From positions 1-30,118 of IMG/VR virus record IMGVR_UViG_3300049846_001995: a stretch of 30,118 nt of DNA, one strand, 5' to 3'. Every line of letters begins with the position of its first letter. Position 1 is the stretch's first letter. The notes below the pieces were generated by a model, which had not been told where the DNA came from, did no database searches, and was given only the letters and a program-made list of their open reading frames with translations. This DNA is from a virus. Position numbers and translations under genes: made by a program. Below, in pieces: positions 4,306-14,221 of this stretch.

Positions 4306-4740
4306 TCTTTTAAAATTTTCAACGGATAAAAAAGACCTGACTAAATTCATGTCTAAACAAGGGCATTCTTTTCTATTATTAAATTCATAATGACCAAAAA
4401 CATTTTCAATAGAAATTTTATGTCGGTCTCGAATGGCGCGGACTAAAGTAACTAAAGCTTCATATTGCGCATAAGTAAAATGCCTGGTGCCAACTAGGCA
4501 AATGCCTAAAGAGTCGTTATTTTGCCCTTGGCAATGGGCGCCGATTTCATCTTCAGGCCTACCGATTTCAATCAAGCCTGTACGGCGTATGACATAATGA
4601 TAACCAATATCCAGGAATCCACGCTCGGTAATATGCCACTGACGAATTTCTTTTAAACCGATTTTGTCTCCAGAATCTTCGGTATCAGAGCAATGGATAA
4701 TAATTCTATTTGGATCGTTTTTTTTCAAATTCTCGTTCAT
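4288..4740 (-). CDS. Endolysin: N-acetylmuramoyl-L-alanine amidase (T7 lysozyme type)
   Basis: 150 residues of the Amidase_2 fold; it cleaves the amide bond between MurNAc and the stem peptide. Key features align by eye with T7 lysozyme: HCS with the zinc ligand His16, the helix EIRQWH, GFLDIGYHYVI with catalytic Tyr47, H117 and C126 as the other zinc ligands, and Lys124 two residues before the Cys. Length matches the T7 family. There is no signal peptide, so release would need a holin or similar. It is the last gene of the leftward operon, downstream of an internal terminator, and overlaps the zinc-ribbon gene by 35 nt. T7 lysozyme also inhibits T7 RNA polymerase, but no phage polymerase is seen here. 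Confidence 0.9.
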   Translation of the reverse strand: MNENLKKNDPNRIIIHCSDTEDSGDKIGLKEIRQWHITERGFLDIGYHYVIRRTGLIEIGRPEDEIGAHCQGQNNDSLGICLVGTRHFTYAQYEALVTLVRAIRDRHKISIENVFGHYEFNNRKECPCLDMNLVRSFLSVENFKRSILKV

Positions 4741-4891
4741 ATTCCATTTTCTTCATTTCTTTTTCTTCATCACCATTTGACGGCCTAATATCATATTCGA
4801 CCCATTTATACCCACAGGTGGGGCATCTTGCGGGATTTATATTATGGACGCCTGAATCAAAACAATGCGGGCATTGCCAAAGATATAACAT
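4706..4891 (-). CDS. Small zinc-ribbon protein (61 aa)
   Basis: Two CxxC pairs, C7-P-H-C10 and C23-P-T-C26 followed by GYKW, form a classical zinc ribbon. The C-terminal half is a highly charged helix (EEKEMKKMEYEREFEKKRSK). No clear Shine-Dalgarno precedes ATG 4891, but a 10-bp palindrome lies just upstream (4898-4907). The gene overlaps the amidase start by 35 nt, so the two are probably translated together. Function is unknown; such proteins can bind nucleic acid or act as adaptors. Confidence 0.65.
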   Translation of the reverse strand: MLYLWQCPHCFDSGVHNINPARCPTCGYKWVEYDIRPSNGDEEKEMKKMEYEREFEKKRSK

Positions 4892-5880: not shown

Positions 5881-6556
5881 TCACTGACTCATTAAAAATT
5901 TTTACAAATTGCTCATAATCAAAAGATAAAATATCAGGCAGCTTTCCGCTTCTATCGCCGGCATTAATATATGGTGTTGGTTTTGTGCGCATTAATCTTT
6001 GACCTTTATCGTCTATATATGCATAGAAAATATAATCGCAAAGTCCACATATAAGCTGACTAGAGGCTCCCGACAAAGTCGTGTCCATATAAGTAAATGA
6101 CATGTTCTTCTTTTTCATTTCACGTTCTTTAGCATGAGAAATAAAAATCATTCCGAATCCCATTTGGCTAAGACCATTCATTACTCGGACAAATTCGTCT
6201 TTGACTAAGGAAAAACCTTTTCCGTAAGCAAGGTCAGAAGGATGGAATACTTCAAACTTGTTACAAATATAATGCTCACAATGCTTATAAAGCCAATCAA
6301 CAATATCAATAACAAGCGTCGTAAATCCATGACCTGGCTTTTGTAATTCTTTTGTAAGCGCATAAATATCCTCCCATTTTGTGATATTAACTTTAAAAAC
6401 TTCTAAATGATTGTGGCCTTCCTCGGTCGCCAAAAATAAAGCATTCGGAATTTTTGAGGCAAAGGTAGATTTCCCACATTTCGGCAAAGCATATAATAAA
6501 GAATTACATTTTCTAAATTCTGTTTTCTTAATTGTCTTGGTTTTCGGTAATATCAT
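5867..6556 (-). CDS. Sak4-like RecA-fold ATPase (AAA_24), single-strand annealing/recombination
   Basis: 229 residues. Walker A is ALPKCGKST (23-31) and Walker B is TLVIDIVD with Asp84. The stretch GFGMIFISHAKE (~130-145) is the sensor-like strand. These features and the length fit the Sak4 type of phage recombinase, usually paired with an SSB-like DUF669 partner, which is present here. It would promote strand annealing or exchange during phage replication. The start (ATG 6556) has AGGGG upstream on the minus strand. It overlaps the Gp157-like gene by 29 nt. Cys17, Cys27 and several later cysteines are notable but not obviously zinc-binding. Confidence 0.85.
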   Translation of the reverse strand: MILPKTKTIKKTEFRKCNSLLYALPKCGKSTFASKIPNALFLATEEGHNHLEVFKVNITKWEDIYALTKELQKPGHGFTTLVIDIVDWLYKHCEHYICNKFEVFHPSDLAYGKGFSLVKDEFVRVMNGLSQMGFGMIFISHAKEREMKKKNMSFTYMDTTLSGASSQLICGLCDYIFYAYIDDKGQRLMRTKPTPYINAGDRSGKLPDILSFDYEQFVKIFNESVNVKK

Positions 6557-7091
6557 TTTTTTCCCCTTTTTTTGTTTTTTCTCTCGCGTCTATAAATTTG
6601 GTTTCTGATTCTATTACTTGGTATCCCATTGGCTCGTTCTTTGTTGCTATTTTTATTAAATCGTCTTTTGAAAGCCTAATAGTTCTAACATTATCAAATG
6701 TTGAAATGGTCACGCATTCAGGATGAAACTTCTGAACTAGATCAAAGTCCTCAATAATTACTTTTTTCGTCTTGCGTGTTTGGATCTTTATTGACGCAAA
6801 TGGAGTGCGTAAATCCCCAGTAAACTCTAGCGTCCATTTCAAGAAATCATCTAAGCGCGCAAGCTTTTTTTCCTGCACTCCAACAAAATGCCTTAAAGCA
6901 TCTTTATATTTATCGACTGAATCCTTTAGATATTTTCTATATCTAACTGTGGAATCAATAGACGAAGCGATTGATCTTTTTACTTCTATCAATTCCTCAG
7001 AAGTTTTTTCTGAAACGTCGCCTTCTGATTCTTCTATTTCTTTTATGATTGCGCAATAATGATCAAATTGATTTACTGATATTAAAGACAT
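6528..7091 (-). CDS. Gp157-like siphovirus protein
   Basis: 187 residues. The N-terminal 100 residues are helical and probably coiled-coil (IKEIEESEGDVSEKTSEEL ... DKYKDALRHFVGVQEKK). They are followed by a basic strand (SIKIQTRKTKKVIIEDFD) and a C-terminal pattern (VTISTFDNVRTIRLSKDDLIKIATKNEPMGYQVIE) that fits the Gp157 family, first described in a streptococcal phage and usually encoded with recombination genes. The exact role is not settled. It is the first gene of the leftward operon, with Shine-Dalgarno motif CACGAGGGG at 7099-7107 (minus strand) seven bases from ATG 7091. The structured RNA element lies directly upstream. Confidence 0.65.
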   Translation of the reverse strand: MSLISVNQFDHYCAIIKEIEESEGDVSEKTSEELIEVKRSIASSIDSTVRYRKYLKDSVDKYKDALRHFVGVQEKKLARLDDFLKWTLEFTGDLRTPFASIKIQTRKTKKVIIEDFDLVQKFHPECVTISTFDNVRTIRLSKDDLIKIATKNEPMGYQVIESETKFIDAREKTKKGEKNDITENQDN

Positions 7092-7098
7092 TTATTTT

Positions 7099-7107
7099 CC
7101 CCTCGTG
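7099..7107 (-). promoter_or_regulatory. CACGAGGGG ribosome-binding motif for the Gp157-like gene
   Basis: The minus strand reads CACGAGGGG, seven bases before ATG 7091. The ACGAGGGG core recurs at the starts of the primase (7260-7267), the 9823 gene (9806-9814 with its C) and the 10728 gene (10714-10722). GAGG supplies the Shine-Dalgarno; conservation of the flanks goes beyond what ribosome binding needs. Confidence 0.65.
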
Positions 7108-7120
7108 TATTGAGAGGATT

Positions 7121-7217
7121 AAAAAAAAATTGCCCGACTGTCAACTGACGAAATCTCTTACGAGGGGATTTGTCGCATGAGGCCGCTAGACCTTTGCTTT
7201 ATTGACAAGTCGGGCTT
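7121..7217 (-). ncRNA. Candidate small structured RNA / attenuated leader (three-way junction with U-tract)
   Basis: Read on the minus strand, transcription should start near 7217 at the foot of a closing stem P1. GCCCGAC... (7215-7202) pairs with 7144-7132 for 13 bp with one bulged base. Inside are hairpin P3 (7197-7175, with AGGUC/GGCCU closing a UAGC tetraloop) and hairpin P2 (7174-7147, eight base pairs with one bulged C). The 3' arm of P1 is followed by AA and nine U (7129-7121). The P2 loop is CCCUCGUAAGA. A G-U pair in P3 on the minus strand would be a C-A mismatch on the plus strand, favouring minus; P2 is slightly better on the plus strand, so this is mixed. Nothing here matches an RNA family I know. 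Confidence 0.6.
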
Positions 7218-7232
7218 GGGTAAATTTATATT
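7202..7232 (+). promoter_or_regulatory. Putative rightward promoter for the primase operon
   Basis: A consensus -35 TTGACA (7202-7207) is followed after 19 nt by TATATT (7227-7232). The spacing is longer than ideal. It would start transcripts near 7239, 39 nt before the primase ATG, leaving the ACGAGGGG ribosome-binding motif in the leader. It overlaps the leftward promoter at 7225-7253, so both cannot be occupied at once. Confidence 0.4.
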
Positions 7233-7253
7233 TTAAATTCTAACATTTTTCAA
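7225..7253 (-). promoter_or_regulatory. Leftward sigma70-like promoter for the structured RNA and recombination operon
   Basis: On the minus strand: TTGAAA (7253-7248), exactly 17 nt, TATAAA (7230-7225). Each hexamer matches consensus in five of six positions. The predicted start is about 7216-7218, exactly where the P1 stem of the RNA element begins. No other promoter is visible between this and the Gp157-like gene, so it probably serves both the small RNA and the operon by read-through. Confidence 0.7.
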
Positions 7254-7277
7254 TTTAAAACGAGGGGAGCTACTTGA

Positions 7278-9503
7278 ATGGGCATCTTTGGAGATAATGC
7301 ACAAAAATTTTGGGAGTATGGTTTATCTGTCATTCCTGTTAATGGAAAGCGACCCTTTACAGATGATTTTCAAGAATGGAGCTTTAAGCCACAGACACAA
7401 AAAGAGATAGAAGATTTAATTAAAGCGCATGGCAATTGCAATATAGGATTAATTATGGGGCCGCAATCTGGCCTTTGTGCTTTTGACTTAGATGCTGATA
7501 AAAAATTCGAAAATGTGGCCCCTGGTATTACAGCTATAAGCGATGCTATCAAGGACATGCTTATACCTTCTCCTTGTGAAAAAAAAGGAAGCAAAGGATT
7601 TACCGCTCTATTTAAACACTCTGATCTTCCAAATGTATCTAGACGATATATGGGGCAACAGATTTTCGATTTCATTTCAGAAAGAAAAATGATCGTTATC
7701 CCGCCTTCTATCCATCCCGATACGGGGAAGCCTTTTGAATGGGTAAACGGTATAAATATAATAGACGTTCTAGATGATTTGCCTGAATTTCCAAAAGATT
7801 TACTTTTTAAAATAACCGATTTTGTTGATAGCGTTAATAAAAATAGCGACGGTAACAACAAAAAATCTGGAAGAAATGAAATTTTAAAAAGCTATGTCTG
7901 CGCCATTATGGAGAAACACAGCACCGATGAAGTCGTAAGATTAGTAATAAGAAAAGATAAAATTCTTCATCCTAAAAATCCATTATTTTCTGATCCAGGT
8001 GAATTTAAAACTACAGAGGAAGAAGTCAACGCATTTGGGTTTGTAACTTCTATTAAAAAAACAATTTATAGAGAGAAGGGTCGTAGAGGAGAAAAAGTTA
8101 ATACTATAGTTGAACAAAAAATTTATCCCGATAAAGATTTTGGATTTTTTAAAATTGTTGAAAGTAGAAATGGATCTACAAAAGAAGTTCCTCAATATAT
8201 AGAGCTTGCAAATTTCATGAAAAATGAAAACGGTTTCATTCATAATGAATCTTTAGATTATATTTACAAAAATAATTATTATCAGTCTGTGTCGGAGGAT
8301 TTTTTGCGAAATGAAATAGTAAAAATGACACTAGATAAATCATCACCTAGACAGGTTTCGCAGTTTCTCCAAACGACTCAAGATCGTTGTTATAAAAATA
8401 TAAAAGAAATAGAGTGCGCATTTGAAGGAAAAATAAATCTTAAAAATGGAATTTTGGATATTAAAACAATGACACTATCTCCTCATGTTCCAGATATTTT
8501 TAGATCTTATATTTTAGATTATGAATTTGACCCCGATGCTGATTGTCCAAAAACATTAGATTTTTTAAATTATATTTTTGAAGGAGATAAGGATTTGTCG
8601 GCGGCATCATTTATTCCAATTGGTTATTCATTGGCTGGAGGTAATCCCTGGCTCCATAAAGCGTTTATATTATATGGAGAAGGCCGGAACGGTAAGTCCA
8701 CATATCTCGATTTAATAATGAGTATTTTAGGAGAAAAAAATTTTTCTTCAGTATCTATGAAGGATATTGCAAAGCCATTTAGTACCATTCTAATGCATAA
8801 AAAGCTTGCCAATATAGTTGAAGAAACTCCTACCAAGCATATAGATGCAGAAGCATTCAAGGCTATTGTTGGCGGTGGTCATGTTAATATGGCATTTAAG
8901 GGTAAAGATGAGTTTAGTGCAAAATTAACTGCTAGGTTGATTTTTGCCTGTAATAAACTTCCATCGTTTGCCGATTTCTCGTCTGGTCTAGAAGAAAGAC
9001 TCTGCATAATTCCATTTAAGAAATGGATACCGCCCGAAGAAAGAATACCAGAGATGGTAAATCTTCTAAAACAAGAAAGATCAGGTATTTTAAATAGGGC
9101 AATTCAAGAATATAAAAAAGTATTAACTAACAAAAGTCTGCCAAGAGTTGCAGCTATTGATAGTGCTTTTGATGAATACAAAAGAGAATCTGATTCCATC
9201 TACTGGTGGGCCTGCGAATGCCTTGAACAAGGGGCGCCATCTTCTTTTTTAGAGACCGAATTTTTATACACAATGTTTGTTGATGATATGAAATATAAGG
9301 TAAAAAATTTACCTCAATTTCAGTCGTTTGCTAAAAGACTAGGCGCAGTAATTAAGAGTAAATTTACTGACAGATCGACAAATCAATCTGTCAGGTTATC
9401 TGTCAATAATGGGTCCAAAAGAGGGGTCTCGGGATTAAAATATAACTCCTCAAACAATAATGCCAAAAAAATAAGCTATTTTGACAGTTTTACTGACAGA
9501 TGA
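7278..9503 (+). CDS. Primase-polymerase / SF3 helicase fusion (replication protein)
   Basis: 741 residues. The N-terminal Prim-Pol domain (~1-175) has GLSVIPVNGKRP, the acidic pair in FDLDAD (D70, D72), a GSKGFTALF segment where many relatives have a His motif, and PPSIHPDTGKPFEW. A middle region is followed by a D5_N-type segment and an SF3 helicase. Walker A is GEGRNGKST (~466-474), Walker B-like VEETP is near 511, and motif C FACNKLP is near 553. The enzyme should prime and unwind phage DNA. ATG 7278 has ACGAGGGG at 7260-7267. It is the first gene of the rightward early unit. The last ~50 codons contain CTGACAGAT-type repeats that continue into the origin-like region. The Prim-Pol motif variation should be checked by alignment. 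Confidence 0.9.
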   Translation: MGIFGDNAQKFWEYGLSVIPVNGKRPFTDDFQEWSFKPQTQKEIEDLIKAHGNCNIGLIMGPQSGLCAFDLDADKKFENVAPGITAISDAIKDMLIPSPCEKKGSKGFTALFKHSDLPNVSRRYMGQQIFDFISERKMIVIPPSIHPDTGKPFEWVNGINIIDVLDDLPEFPKDLLFKITDFVDSVNKNSDGNNKKSGRNEILKSYVCAIMEKHSTDEVVRLVIRKDKILHPKNPLFSDPGEFKTTEEEVNAFGFVTSIKKTIYREKGRRGEKVNTIVEQKIYPDKDFGFFKIVESRNGSTKEVPQYIELANFMKNENGFIHNESLDYIYKNNYYQSVSEDFLRNEIVKMTLDKSSPRQVSQFLQTTQDRCYKNIKEIECAFEGKINLKNGILDIKTMTLSPHVPDIFRSYILDYEFDPDADCPKTLDFLNYIFEGDKDLSAASFIPIGYSLAGGNPWLHKAFILYGEGRNGKSTYLDLIMSILGEKNFSSVSMKDIAKPFSTILMHKKLANIVEETPTKHIDAEAFKAIVGGGHVNMAFKGKDEFSAKLTARLIFACNKLPSFADFSSGLEERLCIIPFKKWIPPEERIPEMVNLLKQERSGILNRAIQEYKKVLTNKSLPRVAAIDSAFDEYKRESDSIYWWACECLEQGAPSSFLETEFLYTMFVDDMKYKVKNLPQFQSFAKRLGAVIKSKFTDRSTNQSVRLSVNNGSKRGVSGLKYNSSNNNAKKISYFDSFTDR

Positions 9504-9805: not shown

Positions 9806-9814
9806 CACGAGGGG
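9806..9814 (+). promoter_or_regulatory. CACGAGGGG ribosome-binding motif
   Basis: The same CACGAGGGG as before the Gp157-like gene, eight bases before ATG 9823. It fixes the start of that gene and links it to the early set sharing this motif. Confidence 0.6.
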
Positions 9815-9822
9815 TCTTTTAA

Positions 9823-10161
9823 ATGGAAAAAGTTTTATTATGCCCAAATTGTCCTGATAGTGTTTGTAATCATTTTTATACTTTAGAAGTAATGCAAGGT
9901 ACTGATGATTATTTAGCCATAAATAAAATTATAGTTGATCGCGATTTAAAAATAATAAAAACACCTCTAGTCGAAAAAAGATCAAATAGAACCAGGAATG
10001 GTGAATTAGAGTTTAGATTTACTTTTAGCTGTGAAAACTGTAACGGCATATGGACTAAGGAATTTGGTTTTCATAAAGGTTCTTATTTAGAAAATGACAA
10101 ATTTTTGCAAAAAGACGCCGCCCAAGGATGGAATATCCCGGCACAGCAATCTAATCACTAA
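9823..10161 (+). CDS. Small cysteine-rich zinc-binding protein (112 aa)
   Basis: Cysteines C7, C10 and C15 (CPNCPDSVC) at the N-terminus and a CENCNGIW knuckle near residue 70 form a probable split zinc ribbon; the rest is beta-rich and charged. The start is fixed by CACGAGGGG eight bases upstream. It is the first gene after the origin-like region. Family and partner are not recognised; a nucleic-acid or protein-binding role is possible. The last 68 nt overlap the next gene in another frame. Confidence 0.65.
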   Translation: MEKVLLCPNCPDSVCNHFYTLEVMQGTDDYLAINKIIVDRDLKIIKTPLVEKRSNRTRNGELEFRFTFSCENCNGIWTKEFGFHKGSYLENDKFLQKDAAQGWNIPAQQSNH

Positions 10162-10713: not shown

Positions 10714-10722
10714 ACGAGGGGG
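10714..10722 (+). promoter_or_regulatory. ACGAGGGGG ribosome-binding motif
   Basis: ACGAGGGGG lies five bases before ATG 10728, the fourth copy of the early-gene motif at a start codon. The 74-nt gap before the gene (10654-10727) shows no clear promoter. Confidence 0.6.
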
Positions 10723-10727
10723 AAAAT

Positions 10728-10997
10728 ATGACAAAATGGATATTTTATTTATTAGCTATAGCGTCAGCGCTTTTTGCTGGATATAAGCTCGGACAATCAA
10801 CTGTAAAAAAAGAAATGTCGATGATGATGGAGCTAGATGCCATAGCAAAACGACAAGCCGATAAAATGGCAAAAAAAGCATATGTTTTGGTTTATAAAAA
10901 CAAAAAAGATATTTATTTTACTTCCCAGGATAGAGTTGATTCTTTCATAAAAGCAAATTCTGAAAAAATAGATAGAGTCTGGTCTTGTAATTTATGA
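10728..10997 (+). CDS. N-terminally membrane-anchored small protein (89 aa)
   Basis: One N-terminal transmembrane segment (WIFYLLAIASALFAGYKLG, residues 4-22) is followed by a helical, Met-rich charged part (KKEMSMMMELDAIAKRQADKMAKKAYV) and a short globular end. This is the layout of an inner-membrane protein with a soluble tail, comparable with i-spanins or exclusion proteins, and it follows a lipoprotein gene. It has its own strong ribosome-binding motif and overlaps the next gene by 4 nt. Family not recognised. Confidence 0.6.
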   Translation: MTKWIFYLLAIASALFAGYKLGQSTVKKEMSMMMELDAIAKRQADKMAKKAYVLVYKNKKDIYFTSQDRVDSFIKANSEKIDRVWSCNL

Positions 10998-12012: not shown

Positions 12013-13188
12013 ATGAAAAAATTTAATTGGTATTTAATCGGTAAATATCTTGTTGGAGTCGGCGCCGCAATAACTCTTATTGGCTTAACATTAATTAACC
12101 TTTATGAAGATTATCGCCCGAGAGAATATGTACAATGGTCGATGCTAAATGGCGAGCCTGATATTCTAGGAACTGTTAAATCAAATAAGAAAACGGCTGA
12201 GGCCAGGGCATTCGATGGCATAGTTTGGGAAGAAAACATTAAATTTTATGCACAAGTAGAGCCTCAGCCCGTGGATTGGTCTGGTGTATGGGATTCGATG
12301 ACAAAAATGTTTGCAAGCTGTTCGGGTGGATCTCCACAGAATCCACAACCCAATCCACAGCCGGCGCCAAATCCACCTAATCAAAACTATCCTGCCCAAC
12401 AATTAGATTGGGGATACCAGAAAATACAAGGCATGGAGGCTAATCAAATTAATCAAGGTGAAGGGATTACCGTTTGTATAACGGACACTGGAATAGATTT
12501 ATCTCATCCCGATTTAGTTATATCTAAATTTATTTCATTTTCCGGCCCATACTCTCCGAGGCATGGACATGGCACCCATGTTGCGGGAATTATTGCGGCC
12601 CAAGACAATGGATACGGGACCAAAGGCGTTGCTCCAAGGGCAAAATTAATTTCTGCCCAAGTTTTAGGAGCTGATGGGAGCGGTTCGTTAGACGGGATAG
12701 CCGAAGGAATAAAATGGTGCGTTGATAGTGGCGCGCAGATTATCAATATGTCCTTGGGTGGCGGTGGGCCAACTCAGCTTATGTATCAAACCCTGCTTTA
12801 TGCTACTCAAAAAGGAGTAAAGGTTATTGCCGCCGCCGGAAACGATGGCGGCCAGACAAACTTTCCAGCCGCTTATCAAATGAACGGACTTTTTGCGATT
12901 TCTGCAACAGACCAAAATGATTCGATTACTAGATTTTCGTCTAGAGGCAAAATTGAATTTGCGGCCCCAGGTCTTGATATTTTATCAAGTATTCCGATGA
13001 GCGGCTGTGAGATATGCTCGGGCAATACGGGATGGGGTAGAATGAGTGGAACTTCTATGGCAACGCCGTATGTATCGGGCGCGATGGCATTGGCTTTGAG
13101 TTCAAAAAGGTCAATTAAAGCTGATCCTATAGGAATTCAGCCATACTATGGATTTGGAAGAATTAATGCGCTAAAATCGGTGCAATGA
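12013..13188 (+). CDS. Membrane-anchored subtilisin-like serine protease (S8)
   Basis: 391 residues. A single N-terminal transmembrane segment (~8-30, YLIGKYLVGVGAAITLIGLT) is followed by an 80-residue region, a Pro/Asn-rich linker (~105-128), and a complete subtilase domain. The triad is Asp158 in TDTGID, His186 in HGHGTHVAG and Ser348 in GTSMATP; the oxyanion Asn277 is in AAGNDGG. The protease would sit in the inner membrane with the catalytic part in the periplasm, unless processed. No pro-domain of the usual type is obvious. ATG follows AGGAG by nine bases. It lies in an accessory run of small membrane and lipid-anchored genes, so a host-envelope or competitor role is more likely than virion assembly. 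Confidence 0.9.
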   Translation: MKKFNWYLIGKYLVGVGAAITLIGLTLINLYEDYRPREYVQWSMLNGEPDILGTVKSNKKTAEARAFDGIVWEENIKFYAQVEPQPVDWSGVWDSMTKMFASCSGGSPQNPQPNPQPAPNPPNQNYPAQQLDWGYQKIQGMEANQINQGEGITVCITDTGIDLSHPDLVISKFISFSGPYSPRHGHGTHVAGIIAAQDNGYGTKGVAPRAKLISAQVLGADGSGSLDGIAEGIKWCVDSGAQIINMSLGGGGPTQLMYQTLLYATQKGVKVIAAAGNDGGQTNFPAAYQMNGLFAISATDQNDSITRFSSRGKIEFAAPGLDILSSIPMSGCEICSGNTGWGRMSGTSMATPYVSGAMALALSSKRSIKADPIGIQPYYGFGRINALKSVQ

Positions 13189-14016: not shown

Positions 14017-14029
14017 GTTATGAGGGGAT

Positions 14030-14221
14030 ATGGAAAACACAAATGAAGATACTCCCTGCGGTTGTGTAGTTGAGGAATCTTGTCCTTATCATAAGTGTCG
14101 ATTTGCAAGGTGCTTTCAATGTGGAGAGATAAGAATCAGTAATTTTCATTTACCTTTTTTTAGGTCAACAAATGAGGAATTTGATTCATTTTACTGCGGA
14201 AAGTGTTACGGATGGGATTGA
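14030..14221 (+). CDS. Small cysteine-rich protein, double zinc knuckle (63 aa)
   Basis: Eight cysteines (C10, C12, C18, C23, C28, C31, C56, C59) plus His21 suggest two zinc sites; CFQCGEI and CGKCYGW look like rubredoxin-type knuckles. ATG 14030 follows GAGGGG with only two bases between, unusually close. It starts 13 bases after the terminator, so a promoter would have to lie within or before the terminator hairpin, or transcription reads through. Function unknown. Confidence 0.55.
   Translation: MENTNEDTPCGCVVEESCPYHKCRFARCFQCGEIRISNFHLPFFRSTNEEFDSFYCGKCYGWD

Follow-up and report, generated by a model that had tools for sequence, protein, structure and literature searches.

The window analysed here, i.e. 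the whole stretch of DNA, is a virus record of 30,118 bases with a G+C content of 36.8%, and its genes include those for tail, lysis, recombination, primase, terminase, capsid and tape-measure functions. It also carries a phage-borne gene for a subtilase-family peptidase (12013-13188; PF00082, E 2.8e-46). A gap of 186 bases separates a leftward operon from a rightward gene encoding a Prim-Pol/D5 primase-helicase, which includes a D5_N domain. The first gene of the leftward operon is followed by a gene for a Sak4-like recombinase and then by endonuclease and SSB-like genes. The divergent gap holds the element described below, and the coordinates of its parts and of the genes concerned are collected in Table 1.

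Table 1. Features of the divergent gap and of the genes whose ribosome-binding sites match the loop (coordinates of the window)
Feature	Position	Strand	Remarks
First gene of the minus operon, 187 aa	6528..7091	-	weak Mu Gam-like match, E 0.028
Predicted target site 1, ACGAGGGGA	7098..7106	-	ribosome-binding site of gene 6528-7091
U9 run, terminator tail	7121..7129	-	sequence
Predicted small RNA, ~97-100 nt	7121..7219	-	two inner hairpins within a bulged outer stem of 14 bp, then a U9 tail
Outer stem, 3' arm	7132..7145	-	fold prediction
Second inner hairpin, bearing the putative antisense loop	7147..7174	-	fold prediction
Putative antisense loop UCCCCUCGUAAG	7157..7168	-	within it, UCCCCUCGU is complementary to ACGAGGGGA, the shared ribosome-binding sequence
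First inner hairpin	7175..7197	-	fold prediction
Outer stem, 5' arm	7201..7215	-	fold prediction
Sigma-70-like promoter TTGAAA-N17-TATAAA	7225..7253	-	10/12 consensus positions
Predicted target site 2, ACGAGGGGA	7260..7268	+	ribosome-binding site of the primase gene
Prim-Pol / D5-type primase-helicase gene (predicted target)	7278..9503	+	Pfam PF09250, PF08706, PF19263; PHROG primases
Predicted target site 3, ACGAGGGG	9807..9814	+	ribosome-binding site of gene 9823
Small early gene, 112 aa (predicted target)	9823..10161	+	
Predicted target site 4, ACGAGGGG	10714..10721	+	ribosome-binding site of gene 10728
Small early gene, 89 aa (predicted target)	10728..10997	+	
Predicted target site 5, UUAUGAGGGGA	14018..14028	+	ribosome-binding site of gene 14030
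Small gene, 63 aa, upstream of HNH gene (predicted target)	14030..14221	+	

A preliminary description of this DNA had placed in the gap a minus-strand RNA gene or attenuator, with a promoter of 17-nt spacing, a predicted start coinciding with the foot of a stem, two hairpins enclosed by that stem and nine U behind it. All of these parts were recovered, and promoter, fold and U-run follow one another in the right order, beyond what chance would give. The TTGAAA of the promoter begins at 7253 and the TATAAA ends at 7225, and the predicted start (~7217-7219) coincides with the stem foot. The stem had been given as 13 bp; it exists, at a different length, namely 14 bp with one bulged base, 7215-7208 and 7206-7201 pairing with 7145-7132, and it is followed by AA and then by the U-run. 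Thermodynamic folding of 7217-7121, the check that had been proposed, yields a minimum free energy of -35.3 kcal/mol vs a shuffle mean of -18.9 (sd 3.06), i.e. a z of -5.37, and random sequences, named earlier as the comparison that could speak against an RNA, do not fold as well (0/200 shuffles). Since the plus strand of the element folds about equally well (-36.4, z -5.25), the strand is not given by folding and is set by the U-run and the promoter. Promoter-like sites this good (at least 10/12 consensus positions, spacing 16-18) number just 20 on both strands of the 30 kb, or 0.33 per kb per strand, so that the chance of meeting one at the stem foot is roughly 0.01 or less. The same promoter probably also serves the minus-strand early operon. 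It is overlapped by an inverted repeat, TTTTAAATT / AATTTAAAA (7231-7260), a possible operator. On the plus strand, TTGACA (within the stem arm) and TATATT lie at 7203-7233 with a 19-nt spacing; they would overlap the minus -10, making overlapping divergent promoters possible.

The element stands outside known RNA families, as had been supposed: Rfam gave no match at gathering scores and, up to E 10, just unrelated sub-threshold matches, and a tRNA/tmRNA search found none. It does possess the feature of an intrinsic terminator, a G+C-rich stem followed, after AA, by a U-run. It might accordingly be a plain terminator or insulator between divergent operons, in which any complementarity to ribosome-binding sites arose by chance, favoured by G-rich sites and C-rich loops; we regard this as quite improbable. 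The promoter points at the stem foot, and the outer stem encloses ~55 nt with two hairpins, far more than the loop of an ordinary terminator. A packaged terminator scanner does not list the element, because it permits loops of 3-8 nt and nothing larger.

What the preliminary description overlooked is a loop antisense to five ribosome-binding sites, which gives the likely function of the element. The loop of the second hairpin is UCCCCUCGUAAG, and the minus-strand RNA carries CCCCUCGU in it. The atypical 8-mer ACGAGGGG occurs five times in the 30 kb, as four ribosome-binding sites, those of genes 7091 (minus), 7278 (primase), 9823 and 10728, and as the copy in the hairpin loop. Gene 14030 is preceded by the near copy UUAUGAGGGGA, which pairs with the loop over 11 bp with one G-U, and the remaining genes of the window have ordinary AAGGAG-type sites or no clear site. 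Complementarity between loop and sites spans 8-11 nt, and the RNA overlaps none of its predicted targets. Evaluated against 43 gene starts, the duplex energies of the loop are bimodal, with values of -18.1, -18.1, -17.9, -17.2 and -15.9 kcal/mol and the next at -10.8.

Such a match is rarely produced at random when its position and letters are counted. None of 4000 random 12-mers from the genome reached at least three genes at -15 kcal/mol, permutations of the loop reached at least four genes in 5/4000 cases, and dinucleotide shuffles of the 97-mer held an 8-mer complementary to at least four gene starts in 33/20000. When the rest of the genome was scanned for 8-mer complementarity, 36 windows that overlap one another gave a count of four; we take these to be the antisense strands of the sites. 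Once the cost of opening the structures is added, the first four ranks among the 43 gene starts go to four of the five sites (-7.1 to -7.9 kcal/mol). Net energies of -7 to -8 kcal/mol are modest, since some of the loop is paired and some of the site sequence folded. The UCCCC of the loop straddles the stem/loop border, with unpaired probabilities of 0.66-0.89 for three of its four C, 0.28 for the first C and 0.08 for the U. The site of gene 7091 falls out of this ranking, being masked by a local hairpin of the read-through leader. The whole-RNA accessibility test, run with unconstrained dinucleotide shuffles and pairing anywhere from -40 to +30, is weak, 8/100 shuffled RNAs reaching as many genes at the chosen energy cut, so that support for the claim comes from where the match lies and which letters it has, and not from binding energy. 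Pairing of a loop with a site is outside what RNAcofold models, and its result is uninformative here. Some complementarity is cheap, given that C-rich loops in general can pair with the G-rich sites of ribosome binding, and the weakness of the energy-based shuffle test counts in favour of a plain terminator. Against a terminator stand the location of the complementarity within a loop, its coverage of four to five gene starts and its recurrence, in different letters, in a second phage.

The masking of the gene 7091 site bears on another explanation. Between the U-run and the start codon lie ~30 nt with no promoter-like site, so that the leftward operon is probably read through the element, and the read-through leader places the ribosome-binding site in a local 7-bp hairpin (UCCUCUC/GAGGGGA, 7098-7118, minus strand). 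As this hairpin already masks its site, the leftward gene may need no small RNA. The element could then be a leader attenuator only, whose U-run stops most transcription of the leftward operon and whose read-through mRNA is masked in cis, by the local hairpin or by the loop, with no action in trans. We consider this unlikely, though worth serious attention, because it leaves unexplained why the same 8-mer serves three to four rightward genes as ribosome-binding site and is absent elsewhere. In the second phage, moreover, a 77-nt gap with promoter-like sequence separates the hairpin from the Sak4 gene, and the loop matches rightward genes too.

This second phage, L007 (with longer flanks, L088; IMG/VR 3300033153_007322), is a distant relative, its primase being 27-28% identical to that of the window. 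Its Sak4-type gene is divergent from the primase gene, and a hairpin with a 10-bp stem, then U8, occupies the same gap in the same orientation as the element of the window. The loop of this hairpin, UUUUGACCGCC, and the ribosome-binding region of the Sak4 gene there, GGCGGUCAAAA, are exact complements. The loop is also complementary to GGCGGUCAA, which stands before two genes beyond the primase gene; a third such gene has GGCGGU. In the whole 27.9-kb record AAAGGCGGTNAA is found at those four starts only, with no matches in the control. The loop duplexes reach -19.7, -18.6 and -17.7, the next being -12.6, and shuffles reached three genes with a 9-mer (K=9) in 46/20000 cases. A promoter-like site (9/12) leads to a predicted RNA of ~97 nt with a fold z of -3.8. 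Here too the whole-RNA accessibility test is weak (10/150 shuffled RNAs reach as many genes), and Rfam, sub-threshold matches included, returned nothing credible for L088, the matches to CopA and RNA-OUT being weak and far below threshold. A 5' hairpin of the L088 element (4834-4867, minus strand) bears the loop CGAAAUAUCUUCUC, which can pair over 14 bp (three G-U) with GGGGAGAUAUUUUG, i.e. the ribosome-binding site and start codon of the L088 primase gene; 20/1000 shuffles equalled this pairing.

Loop and sites thus differ in concert between the window and L007 while the arrangement is kept, the kind of co-variation to be expected of an antisense regulator. We tentatively extend this to a general proposal, to which we give a chance somewhat short of even: some phages may label an early regulon with an off-consensus ribosome-binding sequence of its own and brake it with a matching antisense RNA, the pair co-evolving so that the logic persists among distant phages although the letters are unrelated.

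Several early gene starts with the same element, and one further copy in the control region, would also be seen if ACGAGGGG were a protein site, bound by a translational repressor that acts on RNA, as T4 RegA does, or by a DNA-binding repressor, the hairpin holding an extra copy. We judge this very improbable: in the likely transcript the copy in the hairpin appears as antisense, and is hence invisible to an RNA-binding protein, the sites lie at ribosome-binding positions and not at promoters, and the element of L007 is antisense again. We give even less credence to a role of the plus strand, on which a 19-codon open reading frame (7178-7237, MRPLDLCFIDKSGLGKFIF) with its own ACGAGGGGA site could encode a leader peptide before the primase. 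Its spacing from ACGAGGGGATTTGTCGC to ATG is plausible; however, the plus strand has no promoter-like sites of at least 9/12 in 7050-7280, the U-run suits the minus strand only, and no start codon follows the L007 copy.

The reading that we favour, and hold to be probable, is that 7217-7121 (minus strand) specifies a phage antisense small RNA and/or leader attenuator, which represses an early regulon sharing the atypical ribosome-binding sequence. The sequence itself shows the fold, the promoter, the U-run, the complementarity of loop and sites, the confinement of the site to these gene starts, and the parallel in L007; transcription, pairing, repression and a role in timing are inferred. An RNA of ~97 nt would be made from its own promoter, end at the U-run and display the loop. 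This loop would form 8-11 bp with the ribosome-binding site of each of five phage genes, namely the gene that heads the leftward recombination operon and four rightward genes, one of them the primase gene; the pairing would hide the ribosome-binding site and lower the translation of both divergent early operons, in trans. RNA output would rise with genome copies and so, once replication has begun, restrain the genes for replication and recombination. Antisense copy-number control in plasmids follows the same logic of output following template number. Any polymerase passing the U-run would make leftward mRNA, and the element would then double as the leader (attenuator) of the leftward operon.

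Several known systems resemble this proposal in part. The c4 RNA lies upstream of its target in the same transcript. Similarly, the window element is upstream of the leftward operon, and UCCCCUCGU of its loop is complementary to ACGAGGGGA downstream at 7106-7098. In P1 and P7, complementary sequences of the c4 RNA, probably in loops, pair around the ribosome-binding site and block translation (PMC12197685), and the P1 c4 antisense RNA has 77 nt according to a title cited in PMC8546580. Unlike c4 (RF01695), the window RNA has no match to the covariance model at gathering scores or up to E 10, possesses its own U-run, and has a loop that matches five genes of two divergent operons through one shared site. 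Whereas c4 controls antirepressor synthesis (icd/ant), the predicted targets in the window are a recombination operon, a primase gene and small genes. The window RNA would thus work like P1 c4 RNA but outside that family, since the model match is absent and the targets differ.

The satellite phage P4 makes CI RNA, an antisense RNA derived from an untranslated leader transcript, which keeps replication genes from being expressed (PMC4825925). The placement logic is shared, although P4 CI belongs to a leader upstream of the replication operon, whereas the window element adjoins the primase gene and is transcribed away from it. P4 CI is processed and acts by premature transcription termination through seqA/seqC; in contrast, the complementarity in the window concerns ribosome-binding sites in trans. 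In Staphylococcus aureus, RNAs of the Rsa family and RNAIII use an accessible UCCC in a hairpin loop to pair with the translation start signals of several mRNAs (PMC3861533). The window loop contains UCCCC, part of which is predicted to be paired, and, as with these Gram-positive C-rich-loop RNAs, it is predicted by duplex energy to match the ribosome-binding sites of several genes, here five. They are, however, host RNAs directed at ordinary sites, whereas the predicted targets here are the phage's own and share an atypical site, and the L007 loop (GACCGCC) lacks UCCC. P22 sar and lambda OOP are encoded on the strand opposite their target. Both are phage RNAs that control phage genes via mRNA pairing, with one target mRNA each (PMC12197685). 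Unlike sar and OOP, the window RNA overlaps no target and matches several; nor does it have the full-length complementarity of cis-encoded antisense RNAs such as CopA and OOP. Within the subset of open-access literature covered, a single loop fitted to an off-consensus site that several genes have in common, together with a loop-site pair spelled differently in a second phage, appears to be new; an earlier description is possible.

If the proposal is true, a single short loop could shut down five genes spread over two operons by way of their shared atypical site, forming a regulon written in ribosome-binding sequences, whereas phage antisense RNAs such as P1 c4 and P22 sar are known for single-target control (antirepressor synthesis). 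It would also explain the odd ribosome-binding sites at certain early genes. The resulting search rule, a repeated non-canonical site together with its complement in an intergenic hairpin loop, does not need sequence conservation and could find RNAs that are invisible to Rfam-type searches.

Close relatives of the window were not found by a GenBank phage DNA search, by 30-nt and triple-motif patterns in viral contigs or by protein queries. Among the ~80 relatives surveyed, those with divergent Sak4 and primase genes have either an HTH gene or a U-tailed stem-loop in the gap. A small HTH regulator gene occupies it in L006 and L033, which fits a regulatory role for this place, and L081 and L022 have a similar small open reading frame there. 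In L057 and L033 a U-tailed stem-loop lies in the same gap and on the same strand, with a loop that has no complementarity to shared sites, as a plain terminator would. The GenBank isolates examined do not have the divergent Sak4/primase layout.

L007/L088 is the one clear second case, most other Sak4/primase phages being without such an element, and a word scan over the loci of the relatives gave no further clear one. A stricter hairpin scan, which replaced a noisier one that counted spurious open reading frames, returned L088 as the sole multi-gene 9-mer case among 38 intergenic hairpins; it missed the window's element, probably owing to the bulged stem. A candidate in Staphylococcus phage PI-Sepi-HH2 was set aside, as it is probably itself the ribosome-binding site of a missed gene. 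A possible third case occurs in L139, where a terminator-like hairpin of 36 nt after a gene (4518-4553, plus strand) has the loop CGCUCCUUAGUU, a 12-nt complement of AACUAAGGAGCG before the gene at ~2407. This case is weaker, because its ribosome-binding site is the canonical one. In L057, the entire divergent gap (2836-2985) is a nested near-palindrome with both ribosome-binding sites (ACAGGAGT) and a U-tailed hairpin.
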